From an uncultured Clostridia bacterium (GTDB lineage: Bacteria > Bacillota > Clostridia > Christensenellales > Borkfalkiaceae), in NCBI GenBank assembly GCA_947174415.1, contig CAMWIW010000013.1:1-50631 (forward strand): 50,631 nucleotides of DNA. The letters are read 5' to 3'. The translations under genes and the position numbers were made by a program. Shown piece by piece: positions 1-5,793 of the stretch (position 1 is the first letter of the stretch; each line of letters starts with the position of its first letter). Below the pieces are notes generated by a model. That model ran no database searches and had not been told where the DNA came from. It saw only the letters and a list, made by a program, of their open reading frames with translations.

Positions 1-136
1 GGACCTGTAGGGCCGGTTGGACCTGTCATTCCCGAAGGTCCGGTAGGACCGGTAGGGCCTGTTACACCTGAAGGACCTGTAGGTCCGGTTGGACCTGTCA
101 TTCCCGAAGGTCCGGTAGGACCGGTAGGGCCTGTTG
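1..136 (-). CDS. 3' part of an interrupted collagen-like protein gene (runs off the window)
   Basis: The minus strand reads as Gly-X-Y triplets of the [12 protein letters not shown] kind, typical of Firmicute collagen-like (BclA-type) proteins. The tract is a 72-bp tandem repeat (positions 1-72 and 73 onward, 24 residues per unit). It has no start of its own: upstream it stops at the CAACAG hexamer (131-136) where the mobile element begins. The frame fits the fragment at 5547-5793 exactly, so this is the distal part of the same gene. The plus strand is also open here (GPV triplets), but only because Gly/Pro codons are complementary; the minus frame matches the intact N-terminal part. The gene's true end lies left of the window. 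Confidence 0.85.
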
Positions 137-142
137 ATCCAA

Positions 143-156
143 CAATAAATGGGAAA
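143..156. repeat. attachment-site arm, left end (inverted repeat)
   Basis: CAATAAATGGGAAA is an exact inverted copy of 5527-5540. It lies one base beyond the recombinase stop codon (158-160), so the recombinase gene ends directly at the attachment site, as is usual for integrases next to attP. Confidence 0.85.
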
Positions 157-157
157 A

Positions 158-1777
158 TTATTTCATATTTCCGTCGTTTATCAGTTGATAATAGATATGT
201 ATGCTCCGTCCGCCGTCAAATTCGTTCTCTTCTCCTACCGTTATAAAATTGATTAGCTGCAAGCACGTTTCCCTCGTAAGACTTTCGCAATTGCCGTATA
301 GCTTTAATCTTCTTATATACTCGTCAACCTCTTCTTCGTCTTTGCTTGCATTTGAAAGTCTTTTTTCGGTTTCCGATATTTCTGCTTCTAATATTTGCTT
401 TTCTTTTTGGTACTTATCGCAAAGCCCGATACAGACGCTTTCAGGCATATTTTTTAGCACTCTGTCCTCAAAGGCAGTCTGTATAAGTTTATCCAATTCT
501 GCAATGCGGTTTTTGTTGGCTTTGAGTTGTCTTTCGTCGGAATACCTGTTCTGTTCGCTGCTTCTTGCTCTTTCCCTTATAAAATTTTCTCTCGCCTTAT
601 CCTCGTCAATAATCACGGCGTTTAACATAGCCTGAACGTCCTTTATAATTACGCTTTCTATTTCCCGCTCCGAAATGCTGTGAGACGAGCAATATTTTTT
701 GCCTAAATCGGTATAAGTTCGGCAAGCAAAGCTGCATTTGCAAATTTCCGAATTTTTGTAAGTATGCTTAGTCGTTTTTAGTTTGAGTTTCTTTCCGCAA
801 TCCGCACAAACGAGCAATCCCGACAAAGCGTGTATTTTCTCAGACTTATCTGTTTTCCCTCTCGATACGGATTTGTTGATTTCCTGTACCTTATCCCATA
901 TTTCTCGGCTGACTATTGCCTCGTGAGCGTTTTCTTTAATTATTCGTTCGCTCTCCGGTATACGGATTACTTTATGGTTTTTATAAGAAACGCTCGTTGT
1001 TTTATGCTGTACCGTATAGCCTACGTAAGTAGGATTTGAAAGTATCCCCGTTACGGTAGACGCCCACCAAAACGGCGAACACGGTCTGTCCCACTTCCCG
1101 CCGTCAAGTTTTGTAAAGTAAGTTGCGGGATTGGGTATGCCTTCATCGGTCAGGATTCTAGCAATAGTTCCGCAAGAATTTCCTTCAATCCGCAAATTAA
1201 AAATTCGCTTTACCACCTTTGCCGCCTCTTCGTCGATAACGGCGGTGCGGTTTTCGTCAGTTCCCGCCTTATAGCCGTACGGATAATTCCAATTTGTGTA
1301 CTTCCCCGAACGCTGGCTTGCCTCCAAAACCGCCCTGATTTTTTTGCTCGTGTTGGCGGCGTGCCACTCGTTAAAAACGTTCATTATAGGCATCATATCC
1401 ATGGCGGCGCTGCATCTGTCTGAAGTATCCACGTTGTCGTTAATCGCAATAAACCGTATGCCGTATGCGGGAAAAATATAGTCTATGTACTGCCCCACTT
1501 GAATATAGTTTCGCCCGAAACGCGATAAGTCTTTTACCACGATAGTATCGATTTTACCCGACTGCGCGTCATCTAACATTCGCTTGACGTCGGGGCGGTC
1601 GAAGTTTGTCCCCGACCAACCGTCGTCTACGTATTCGTCAATAATCACGCCGCCGTGTTCCGATACGAAATTATGAAGAATAATGCGCTGACGTTCAATA
1701 GACGTCGATTCGCCCGCTTTTTCGTCATCACGGGACAAACGCATATATATTCCCGTCTTTGCAAACGCTGCCGTCAT
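158..1777 (-). CDS. large serine recombinase (site-specific integrase/excisionase)
   Basis: This 539-residue protein cuts and rejoins att sites through a phosphoserine link. Residues 6-155 form the resolvase catalytic domain, with the nucleophile in YMRLSRDD (Ser15) and the conserved Arg pair in DLSRFGRN (83-90). A recombinase domain follows (about 165-290), then a zinc ribbon (C324, C327, with C352 and C363 as likely partners) and a charged helical, coiled-coil region (about 395-480) that controls direction in this family. It appears full length and intact. The start codon overlaps the stop of a small upstream ORF (ATGA), and the stop lies beside the left attachment arm. It is the obvious enzyme for moving this element. 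Whether excision is constitutive or developmentally timed cannot be read from the gene. Confidence 0.96.
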
Positions 1778-1935
1778 ATCAAACCCATTTCCCTGTTTGC
1801 GCGGCGGACTGCGAGTTCTGCAACTACTTGATTTATATTTTTATCACCCGTAAAATGCCTTGTAACGATATACTTTTTGCCGTCAATTACGTACTCCCTT
1901 TCGCATTTCGGGCAAGATTTATACCGTTCAATCAA
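1774..1935 (-). CDS. small Cys-x2-Cys protein, possible recombination accessory factor
   Basis: A short open frame of about 53 codons, too small for routine gene finders, ends in an ATGA overlap with the recombinase start, which suggests coupled translation. It contains KSCPKCEREYVIDGKKY, a zinc-ribbon-like start, followed by a basic, Ala/Val-rich helix. No ATG is present. The TTG at 1935 is the most likely start, and the frame stays open to 1950. Its position just before the integrase suits a recombination directionality factor, but this is inference from context. I do not recognise the family. Confidence 0.5.
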   Translation of the reverse strand: MIERYKSCPKCEREYVIDGKKYIVTRHFTGDKNINQVVAELAVRRANREMGLI

Positions 1936-2033
1936 TTGTTCAGGTTTGATGCTCGTTTATATATACCTCACTTTAAGTATAGTTCCCCTATCCATAATAT
2001 GAGTTTTTAAGTTTTTCTGTTACGGGCATAATA

Positions 2034-2071
2034 AAAAACTCGGCTTCGGGACAAGCCGAAGCCGAGTTTTT
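2034..2071. terminator. bidirectional Rho-independent terminator
   Basis: A 16-bp stem of AAAAACTCGGCTTCGG and its complement encloses a 6-nt loop and has A and T tracts on either side. It ends the small-gene operon at 2079-2801 on the minus strand. Confidence 0.85.
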
Positions 2072-2078
2072 ATTTAAT

Positions 2079-4518: not shown

Positions 4519-4583
4519 AAGTATCACCTCTTTAATCTTTCTACTTATAAGGTTGTGTTTACCAAGAAAAAGTCTCATTTATT

Positions 4584-5105
4584 TCAATAATTTAAAAAAA
4601 TTCTTAATTCTTCTCTTAAGGAATTGATTTGGCGCTTTACCGTGCTGGTTGAAATCTCCAACTCTTTGGCAGTTTCGCTGATAGTCATTCCATATACGAA
4701 ATGTAGCTGAATTATTTCCTGTTGCCTTATAGGCAATTTCGCCAAAGTATTCGCAAATTCTATTTTCATATCCCAATTTTGGTCTTTCGACGAATATGCT
4801 TCGTCAATAAACTCGGCATAAACGTATTTTTCATTGCGTTTTTTATAATTTGACAACGCAAATTTTAACGCTTGGAAAATCCAAGAATTGGGCTTTTTTA
4901 TGTACTTATAGTGAGCGGCATTATTAAAAATACTTATTAATACGTTTGATGCTACGTCTTCTGCGATATTTCTGCATTTAACCTCCGAAAAGGCAGTTAA
5001 CAATAACTTTTCAAAATAATAATTATATATTTTTAGCATTCCACTGTTGTCTCCGTCTTTGATTAATCGAAGACAACGGTTAAATTCTTTTGTTGTCAAT
5101 TTCAT
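4584..5105 (-). CDS. ECF-type RNA polymerase sigma factor
   Basis: This 173-residue protein has a sigma-70 region 2 with AEDVASNVLISIF and KKPNSWIFQALKFALSNYKK (about 48-89). A region 4 helix-turn-helix follows near the C-terminus: LPIRQQEIIQLHFVYGMTIS, then ETAKELEISTSTVKRQINSL (about 122-166). No region 1 or 3 is present, as expected for the ECF class. It starts 1 nt after the XRE gene stop, so the two are co-transcribed. It most likely directs polymerase to promoters of the element and perhaps of the host. Confidence 0.88.
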   Translation of the reverse strand: MKLTTKEFNRCLRLIKDGDNSGMLKIYNYYFEKLLLTAFSEVKCRNIAEDVASNVLISIFNNAAHYKYIKKPNSWIFQALKFALSNYKKRNEKYVYAEFIDEAYSSKDQNWDMKIEFANTLAKLPIRQQEIIQLHFVYGMTISETAKELEISTSTVKRQINSLREELRIFLNY

Positions 5106-5106
5106 T

Positions 5107-5418
5107 TTACTTGCTTATAAATGCTTTTAAAACAGAAATGGCAAGTTTCTGTTTTTCTTTGGTTAAATGTTCAAACAAATATAAAATCTCCCTTTGCTCT
5201 TCAGTTAAATCGAATTCTTTACCTTCGGCAAAAAACTCTGATAACGTTATGTTCAATCCAGTGCAAATTGAAGAAAGAGTCGTGATTTCAGGCTCGCTCG
5301 ACCTTGTAAATAATGAACTGATAACCGAGGGGTTTAGTCGCGACTCTATTGCAAGCTGATTGTTGTTCAGCCCCTTTATTTCCATATAATATCGTACTCT
5401 GCTTTTAATGTCAATCAT
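5107..5418 (-). CDS. XRE-family helix-turn-helix regulator
   Basis: The product has 103 residues from the ATG at 5418 (MIDIKSRVRYYMEIKG). The frame is open 15 codons further upstream, but that part is hydrophobic and lies within the promoter. The HTH covers about residues 4-60 (NNQLAIESRLNPSVISSLF, then ITTLSSICTGLNITLSEFF). A C-terminal helix follows. Its promoter is at 5435-5463. It heads the XRE-sigma-secreted protein-membrane protein operon and is the likely master switch of the element. Confidence 0.85.
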   Translation of the reverse strand: MIDIKSRVRYYMEIKGLNNNQLAIESRLNPSVISSLFTRSSEPEITTLSSICTGLNITLSEFFAEGKEFDLTEEQREILYLFEHLTKEKQKLAISVLKAFISK

Positions 5419-5434
5419 AATGCTACCACTAAAT

Positions 5435-5463
5435 ATTATAATGCTTAAAATAAATTCAAGCAA
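5435..5463 (-). promoter_or_regulatory. sigma-A-type promoter of the element's XRE operon
   Basis: TTGCTT (5458-5463) and TATAAT (5435-5440) on the minus strand are spaced 17 bp. The octamer AATGCTAC upstream and its inverted copy GTAGCATT just before the ATG flank the promoter and could be regulator sites. Confidence 0.7.
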
Positions 5464-5496
5464 TATTCTAAATATTCGTTTGTAGCATTTTTTTAT

Positions 5497-5793
5497 TTAG
5501 CAAAAGCATTTTTTTGATAAAAAAGGTTTCCCATTTATTGCAGGCTCTGTTGGACCGGTTGTACCCGTCATACCGTTATAACCTGTTGGACCGGTCGCAC
5601 CCGTAGGACCGGTAATGCTAAGTCCGGTTGCACCCGTTGCGCCGGCAGGACCTGTTGCGCCTGTTGCACCCGTAGGACCGGTGATGCCCGTTAAAGTATT
5701 AACGTAAATTCTTCTTACGTTACCGTTTGAATTGCAGCCGCAGTTACAACCGCAGTCCGAATTGCACGCAAAGAAAATACTTAATTTTATCAT
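5497..5793 (-). CDS. 5' part of the interrupted collagen-like protein gene
   Basis: The first 82 codons (5793 to about 5547) are native: a Cys-rich head ([12 protein letters not shown], about 10-21), a short linker, then Gly-X-Y triplets of the GPT/GAT kind. Beyond the hexamer at 5547-5552 the frame runs into the element for 16 codons and stops, giving a truncated 98-residue product. The ATG at 5793 follows the GT2 stop codon by 2 nt and uses an AGAGGT site inside that gene. Such proteins form glycosylated filaments on spores or cell surfaces in Bacillus and Clostridia. Excision of the element would fuse this head in frame to the repeats at 1-136. Confidence 0.88.
5527..5540. repeat. attachment-site arm, right end (inverted repeat)
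   Basis: TTTCCCATTTATTG is the inverted partner of 143-156. It is separated from the shared hexamer (5547-5552) by 6 bp, as on the left side, so the reconstructed attP is symmetric about the hexamer. The inferred crossover dinucleotide is the central AC of CAACAG on the minus strand. Confidence 0.85.

Follow-up and report, generated by a model that had tools for sequence, protein, structure and literature searches.

In the window (the whole stretch of DNA analysed, 50,631 nucleotides) which comes from a gut bacterium, a collagen-like gene on the minus strand was found to be cut in two by an element of 5,416 bp, measured between its two AC cores (134 to 5550). Read on the minus strand, the head of the gene extends from 5793 to the first core (5550-5549) and encodes a Cys-rich leader followed by Gly-X-Y triplets; the tail, on the same strand, starts with the second core (134-133) and reaches base 1. 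The genes and features of this region are:

1..134, minus strand: second part of the collagen-like gene, with Gly-X-Y repeats, truncated at base 1 by the contig edge; junction codon ACA (Thr), its AC being the core
133..156, minus strand: attR inner arm and core, TTTCCC-N16-AC
158..1777, minus strand: large serine recombinase (LSR), 539 aa, with Resolvase, Recombinase, Zn_ribbon_recom and DUF4368 domains
1774..1956, minus strand: conserved small protein ORF, ~60 aa, without an early ATG; possible starts ATC at 1950 or TTG at 1935
2034..2071, minus strand: strong terminator-like hairpin with a 16-bp stem, separating the cargo from the recombinase module
2079..2294, minus strand: cargo ORF, 71 aa, without Pfam, NCBIfam or PADLOC match
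2291..2662, minus strand: cargo ORF, 123 aa, without Pfam, NCBIfam or PADLOC match
2937..3677, minus strand: cargo ORF, 246 aa, with a run of hydrophobic residues at about 63-85 (judged by eye); Pfam matches all below cut-off
3679..4518, minus strand: cargo ORF, 279 aa from an internal ATG, with a signal-peptide-like start (by eye)
4584..5105, minus strand: ECF-type sigma-70 factor, 173 aa
5107..5463, minus strand: small HTH (Cro/C1-like) regulator, scoring under the Pfam cut-off; the phage RstR repressor family is also matched, again below cut-off
5527..5550, minus strand: attL core and inner arm, AC-N16-GGGAAA
5549..5793, minus strand: first part of the collagen-like gene (Cys-rich leader, then ~15 Gly-X-Y triplets)
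5796..6866, minus strand: family-2 glycosyltransferase, neighbour of the collagen-like gene and locus anchor in relatives

The sequence CAACAG is present at both junctions, as a preliminary description of this DNA had stated, and when the flanks are joined at AC the Gly-X-Y pattern is unbroken, the core being the first two letters (AC) of a Thr codon followed by Gly. The element proposed there, splitting a collagen-like gene that can be rejoined in frame, is therefore borne out, while its limits of 131..5552 have to be moved to 134-5550, core to core. The head ORF now reads 16 codons into the element and stops at 5497. The 22-nt inner arms form an inverted repeat around AC in which 18 of 22 positions agree. 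A reading of the ends as TTGCAA, a perfect palindrome around CA, was ruled out, since with AC as the core the 22-nt arms match and the repeat is unbroken in the nine complete elements. By itself TTTCCC-N16-AC is not significant within the window (1 match against 2.05 expected), and the window junction is more than chance in that the same junction recurs in relatives.

The recombinase scores above the profile cut-offs for Resolvase (94 bits), Recombinase (88.6 bits) and the zinc ribbon (44.3 bits), and narrowly so for DUF4368 (27.2 bits against 25). The marks of a serine integrase were found, namely an attP with dyad symmetry about a dinucleotide core and a recombinase gene beside one end. No phage structural or lysis genes were seen among the profile matches of the element, in agreement with its earlier description as a non-phage serine recombinase element, and no relaxase or conjugation genes were found in it. 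The TGA of the ~60-aa ORF overlaps the ATG of the recombinase gene, and by its position and size the small protein is a candidate recombination directionality factor. The 279-aa cargo ORF gave a sub-cutoff match to Mplas_Cys_pep, and 34 protein-database entries, including itself, were retrieved for it.

Base 1 of the window is also base 1 of its contig (C13), and this assembly break inside the repeat truncates the collagen tail. The genome has five collagen matches, and among them a headless end occurs only once, on the right of contig C29, where a 316-aa tail carries a BclA_C domain. The remainder of the split gene is probably this tail, and C13 and C29 would then be adjacent; no exact overlap was found between their ends. 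The gene, earlier called probably exosporial, may thus be regarded as probably BclA-like if that adjacency is accepted. A YobI-like N-terminus is also present on C29; when it was compared together with the end of contig C1 as one gene, the N part alone matched relatives.

Relatives of the recombinase and of the window locus

A readable 3' flank was available for 73 rows of the recombinase tree (the window and 72 loci), and 35 of these run into a collagen tail. All 35 fall in a single clade of 47 rows (SH-aLRT 99 at its node), against 0 of 29 rows outside it, an association with a Fisher p of 9e-13 that is overstated, the rows being related. The tree excludes four of the 79 loci (L143, L159, L162 and L166); of these four, L162 and L166 were read as collagen. 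Three rows in the tree stop at the edge of a contig. The collagen labels were set by eye: L123, L136 and L161 were counted even with a run too short for the script, and L146 stayed outside the 35 with 5 triplets at 150 nt by the script. A recheck found arm, core and collagen in L146 and added it as a collagen-adjoining row, together with L119, on the opposite strand. After this recheck, 7 of the 44 clade rows with a flank have no collagen beside the recombinase. For L115 and L117 a collagen attL lies 36 kb upstream, L150 also has a collagen attL upstream, and L127 has an attR-like arm 10 kb beyond; L142, L148 and L153 are without explanation.

Of 35 junctions to which a core was assigned, 33 have CCC at -19..-17 relative to an in-frame AC; recombinase relatives in many related bacteria thus share this codon position in other collagen-like genes. 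Nine complete elements rejoin at the AC core into an unbroken Gly-X-Y repeat, with arms that agree as inverted repeats in 12-20 of their 22 positions. The elements at L123 and L126 are 94.7% identical over 3.5 kb ending at the core, and their host flanks 66-76%. The cargo varies between islands and from species to species and, in 398 genomes of the family, the window element was matched at length only at its recombinase end among the matches listed. The tail of one split gene holds a second attL. A relaxase lies beside the recombinase in L080, a relative of the window element, and pattern-limited scans of IMG/VR gave six loci at 32-34% and one at 47%. Most collagen tails are intact (28 of the 32 ending inside a contig, judged by eye), which would fit recent insertion and equally selection for a restored gene.

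The window locus was located through a glycosyltransferase match in 78 genomes, seven of which had weak hits only and were left unread; 24 of 70 rows either lacked a collagen gene or could not be classified. Among the 46 species classified (by eye) the gene is interrupted in 14, and the uninterrupted gene that the preliminary description had proposed to look for is present in 32. The interrupted genes are scattered on the tree, with 12 changes by parsimony against a shuffled mean of 13.0; when only well-supported branches are used the tree forces 6 changes, not 12. All 14 interrupted heads have GGG exactly 16 nt past AC; GA[A/G] after the Thr is missing from two of them (G005 and G036), and in G026 GGGTAA stands in place of GGGAA. 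Head length differs among interrupted genes. In six species the identities of LSR and glycosyltransferase rise together (rho 0.60, p 0.018, one sister pair contributing much), as inheritance would give.

Comparison with known systems

Serine recombinase elements that split genes are known in sigK, gerE and spsM, and a recombinase-plus-cargo layout is known in staphylococcal cassette chromosomes. The window element shares with skin, gin and SPbeta the splitting of one coding gene which precise excision would rejoin in frame. It resembles the cassette chromosomes in layout, but it has one recombinase and another target; the best match of this recombinase, NCBIfam CcrB, scores 141.7 bits, far under the curated cut-off of 900.

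The gin element, placed in gerE of Bacillus cereus ATCC10987, has 28.6 kb, three recombinases and the 6.5 kDa protein GirX, and its sporulation-specific excision was demonstrated (PMC5595907). Both are islands free of phage genes which split a coding gene and have a serine recombinase, inverted-repeat att sites and a small protein, in the window element a putative partner. However, gin interrupts a sporulation regulator gene with three recombinases, while the window element has one, sits in a repeat gene and belongs to insertions seen in many species. For SPbeta in spsM of Bacillus subtilis, mother-cell excision and a role of SprB were demonstrated (PMC4191935); the likeness lies in a recombinase-mediated split of a spore-surface gene rejoined on excision, which for the window gene presumes the adjacent BclA_C tail. 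SPbeta is a phage, whereas the window element has no recognisable phage structural genes.

A survey of DUF4368 multi-targeting large serine recombinases describes A/T-rich and some more complex target motifs (PMC10083194). The window family agrees with them in its DUF4368 domain, a clade with several target genes and a conserved dinucleotide core, and departs from the motifs given in the available text of the survey in that its target is a Gly-X-Y codon repeat. In the literature searched, 'large serine recombinase' and 'collagen' are found together in 3 papers, the survey not being among them. The mobilisable transposons of the Tn4451/TnpX type are comparable by their large serine recombinase and 2-bp core (TnpX has a 2-bp target, PMC3158075), and differ in that no relaxase was found in the window element. 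A literature search gave nothing joining Coproplasma with collagen, or a collagen-like protein gene with a mobile genetic element.

The recombinase clade described here appears tuned to a codon repeat, with tens of sites per gene that rejoin in frame. The 47 recombinase rows make the choice between parasitism and regulation in the splitting of spore-surface genes a testable question, and they provide a natural set of matched attL/attR pairs usable for recombinase engineering.

Origin and possible role of the split gene

We consider it highly probable that these are non-phage mobile islands specialised for collagen genes, and that the window element integrated site-specifically at the AC of a Thr-Gly pair. 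For this recombinase family the repeat DNA of collagen genes is the likely landing site. Integration would join attP (TTTCCC-N16-AC-N16-GGGAAA) to an attB within the repeat, most likely at the AC of a Thr codon ahead of Gly. In collagen-like genes of this type ACNGG is in frame in 992 of 1000 cases, and the uninterrupted genes at the window locus have ~30 Thr-Gly sites each in a single reading frame, so that such a gene may serve as a long landing strip. Tens of equivalent in-frame sites in one gene would explain how insertions can recur and stack. With the island in place the split gene would yield only a truncated product, and precise excision would make the gene whole again, possibly helped by the small protein encoded upstream of the recombinase gene. 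Between species these islands presumably travel as carriers of accessory genes. Speaking against this reading are the clade rows with no collagen beside the recombinase, the joint rise of LSR and glycosyltransferase identity, the drop to 6 forced changes on well-supported branches, and weak tests that gave no excised form, no circle and no uninterrupted allele of the same species.

It is rather unlikely that an element integrated in this manner is now stuck and its collagen gene dead. Genomes G019 and G020 do share a related island of ~36 kb without a collagen tail beside the recombinase, which would suit such a fossil, but no damage is seen in the window to the recombinase frame, to either arm or to the gene halves as far as they can be read, and the near relatives G060, G056 and G029 have no insertion.

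Somewhat less likely still is a developmental switch, in which the element is excised in the mother cell during sporulation and the spore-surface gene rejoined. The host genome carries the sporulation genes SpoIVA and Spo0A; the BclA_C domain on the C29 tail and the mostly intact collagen tails also speak for this possibility. So does the small ORF coupled to the recombinase, of a size comparable to GirX of gin (PMC5595907). The exactly joined frame was previously taken as a pointer to such a switch. Site-specific recombination is conservative and ACNGG stands almost solely in frame in these genes, and therefore exact restoration is mechanical. Moreover, interruption is scattered over species, and cargo and head length vary. 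SpoIVA does not track recombinase carriage (present in 13 of 17 carriers and in 46 of the 76 non-carriers, p = 0.27), and G036 and G047, each 94% complete, have the recombinase and no SpoIVA match. Sporulation sigma sites upstream were counted as 15 of 40 for sigE (shuffled mean 9.3, maximum 18) and 17 of 40 for sigK (mean 12.6, maximum 18), neither outside the range of the shuffles.

We give an equally small chance to a wider proposal, by which the collagen repeats are docking strips and also a genus-wide device for switching and shuffling BclA-type spore-surface glycoproteins. Insertion would silence the gene by leaving it a short tail, the recombinase and its small partner would excise the island under regulation and restore the gene, and repeated use of equivalent Thr-Gly sites would exchange C-terminal domains.

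Phase variation, in which a surface protein is reversibly switched on and off as the element is excised and re-integrated within a population, seems improbable. An open recombinase frame with complete domains, matched attL and attR arms and the frequency of uninterrupted relatives speak for it, but a circle that does not replicate is normally lost after excision, no mixed state was seen, and switching needs no varied cargo. No circle junction of the element was found in viral contigs, and no uninterrupted allele of the same species among 7,994 candidates scored on residues 1-82, both of these being weak tests; the closest full-cover relative of the collagen head among those candidates is 69% identical. 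Finally, the contig ends in a repeat in an assembly of 40 contigs, but a misassembly bridging two unrelated repeat genes is very improbable, as matching arms stand on both sides and the same split architecture occurs at the same locus in assemblies G059, G007 and G079.

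The divided collagen-like gene

The window spans its contig entirely, starting at base 1, and belongs to a 1.59 Mb genome (40 contigs, completeness 95.65%). It carries a collagen-like gene with a 5.4 kb break, arranged as follows.

5796-6866, minus strand: glycosyltransferase, the anchor for this locus in relatives
5793-5549, minus strand: head of the gene, Cys-rich leader and Gly-X-Y triplets
134-5550, minus strand: element of 5,416 bp, AC core to AC core
158-1777, minus strand: large serine recombinase with Resolvase, Recombinase, Zn_ribbon and DUF4368 domains
134-1, minus strand: tail of the gene, Gly-X-Y triplets again

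The hexamer CAACAG that the preliminary description had placed in both flanks is real. As was also proposed there, the outer flanks join into an unbroken Gly-X-Y pattern; the analysis joined them at an AC core. With AC taken as core, the inner arm on the tail side (attR) is TTTCCCATTTATTGTTGGATCA and that on the head side (attL), reverse-complemented, is TTTCCCATTTATTGCAGGCTCT; 18 of 22 positions are equal.

A search of the host genome with the uninterrupted gene of relative G060 gave five matches: two on the window contig (C13), one on C10 belonging to a separate collagen gene with its own leader, a weak one on C5, and one on C29, at whose very end sits a headless collagen tail (316 aa, BclA_C at 59.8 bits). 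No exact overlap was found between the ends of C13 and C29. Because these are the sole tail-less and headless ends in the genome, we infer that the C29 tail probably adjoins the C13 break. The collagen gene of G060 lies between the glycosyltransferase and a thymidylate-synthase-like gene (the latter named by eye), and in G007 a similar gene, again by eye, follows the collagen tail. The copy in the window host, 93% identical, lies on C1, and other DNA therefore intervenes in this genome. On C29 a second attR-like arm with core (L262, 9233-9208, minus strand; 24.5 bits by PWM, training-arm mean 20.9) begins 19 nt past the stop of the collagen tail, with non-collagen DNA beyond; it may have been left behind by a different element that has since been lost.

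Element ends and reading frame

The core was chosen as the in-frame AC near the repeat start with the best TTTCCC arm, AC and phase being conditions of the search. Of 38 junction rows 35 were given a core, and CCC occupies positions -19 to -17 from it in 33; the two exceptions are L119, with its collagen on the opposite strand, and L142, which lacks collagen. An independent rule, taking the first Thr before the repeat, gives the identical core in 30/33 and reads one in each of L122, L135 and L162, which were uncored by the best-arm rule. At the glycosyltransferase locus GGG lies exactly 16 nt after AC in all 14 interrupted heads, as GGGAA in 13.

In the uninterrupted genes of this locus (30 of 32, those readable by script) ACN precedes Gly in 926 of 1264 triplets, with 14 to 48 such sites per gene, and ACNGG occurs 992 times in frame against 8 out of frame. 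A recombinase reading ACNGG in a gene of this kind would therefore keep to a single frame in almost every insertion and excision. Both ends were read for nine complete elements of 3.6 to 10.8 kb (window, G059, G007, G079, G002, L130, L140, L144 and L112), and rejoining restored an unbroken Gly-X-Y pattern in all of them. A tenth element, L150, has an attL and no attR was read.

Among the literature matches listed (recombinase, genomic-island and mobile-element topics with collagen) there was no report of serine-recombinase elements in collagen-like genes, and term searches of a Pasteuria ramosa paper showed no passage on them. A passage in a 2026 survey of C. difficile BclA uses 'interrupted' for assembly breaks.

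Recombinase clade and probable mobility

The window recombinase was matched at E <= 1e-100 in 32 of the 93 genomes of the genus. At 12 of the 20 recombinase places listed besides the window, the recombinase stop there lies no more than about 60 nt from a Gly-X-Y frame. A GTDB genome scan, with the best 80 of 222 relatives kept, gave 79 loci, several of which come from records already among the genus genomes, in hosts labelled Candidatus Coproplasma and Scatosoma, among others. A maximum-likelihood tree was built from the window and 75 loci (76 rows). In it all 35 collagen-labelled rows fall in one 47-row clade (support 99), and none of the 29 rows outside abuts collagen. The rest of the clade comprises three rows at contig ends and nine labelled as without collagen within 200 nt. 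Two of these nine were rechecked. In L146 an arm and a core are present, with collagen 150 nt past the recombinase stop. In L119 (11573-11872) the arm and core are of the usual type, and the collagen frame after them runs on the opposite strand, which can be read as reversed insertion or later inversion. Both rows shift toward the collagen-targeting reading, and the odds we give it are unchanged.

Outside the clade, L086, L088, L089 and L149 abut what looks by eye like the C-terminus of a tyrosine integrase gene, which would be another specialised target. At L220 (55-80, G047:C1:268054) an arm-like site around an AC core scores 20 bits; no collagen frame adjoins it.

For the glycosyltransferase-linked gene 71 regions were read, and the 70 in the tree divide into 14 interrupted, 32 uninterrupted and 24 other. 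The window species is interrupted and its nearest species (G060, G056, G029) are not. Parsimony counts 12 changes (shuffled mean 13.0, as low in 146/500 shuffles), or 6 if well-supported branches alone are counted. L123 and L126 are 94.7% identical over a stretch of 3.5 kb that stops at the core, with host flanks at 66-76%, and L118 and L155 94.2% over 1.4 kb stopping near it. In L144 (11798, G047:C15) a split gene has, within its tail, a second attL with exact AC-N16-GGGAAA spacing, a pattern that tandem insertion would give. Some insertions are inherited, since G019 and G020 have recombinases 88% identical and largely the same island over the compared part. Across six species at the locus, recombinase identity rises with glycosyltransferase identity (rho 0.60, p 0.018).

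Collagen genes at this locus (L090-L109, L198-L241) finish in one of two ways, BclA-type (...TLTVKQ) or short (...LLASLRAAGFLAT). The two kinds of end are scattered among the species, which may reflect C-terminal domain exchange.

Cargo, candidate partner protein and possible developmental role

Cargo and neighbouring genes are as follows.

Window: ECF sigma factor, HTH regulator, secreted-type 279-aa protein, small proteins
G079 (L072 4116-7875): Gabija pair (GajA profile 657 bits, GajB profile 527 bits)
G002: uracil permease and uracil phosphoribosyltransferase, similar sequences in G036 and G047 by eye
G004: MobA-type relaxase adjoining the recombinase
G007: 1885-aa protein with NPCBM and F5/8 C domains

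Among the matches listed from 398 family genomes, those to the window element DNA sit at the recombinase end, save short weak ones; pattern-limited viral scans gave distant recombinase relatives only. The database lists 34 entries for the 279-aa protein, including an identical one from a 6.9-kb contig, and a distant relative (L094 3728-4420, G088:C33; 25% identical, E 9e-17) lies a few kb from an uninterrupted same-locus collagen gene. In L078 (29-4, minus strand) an attR-like arm lies 10 kb past the recombinase, and ACAGG stands where the contig (G064:C32) ends; cargo may flank the recombinase on both sides. L189-L192 (G019:C1, G020:C42) are related islands of about 36 kb between a collagen attL and the recombinase, containing by eye very large surface-type proteins and signalling-type genes; no collagen tail adjoins the recombinase.

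In the window a 60-residue frame with ...YIVTRHFTGDKNINQVVAELAVRRANREMGL overlaps the recombinase start by 4 nt. Its product resembles in size and position GirX, the 6.5 kDa partner protein of the gin element in Bacillus cereus gerE, and a GirX-like function may be suggested by this analogy. A loose motif search for such a protein gave hits in 37 of the 43 clade loci whose upstream DNA was long enough, some of them false by eye, against 8 of 31 others; a relative from L076 had no Pfam match.

We hold mobility as the explanation of the islands, with developmental excision that would restore the collagen gene as a less probable alternative. The host genome has SpoIVA and Spo0A. Among the 17 genomes that carry the close recombinase 13 have SpoIVA above cut-off, against 46 of 76 others (p = 0.27); upstream counts of sporulation sigma sites stayed within the range of shuffles. 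Of 36 collagen tails four are cut by the end of their contig. Among the remaining 32, 28 reach, by eye, a C-terminus of the usual kinds, which is consistent with recent insertion and would also be consistent with selection on a restored gene.
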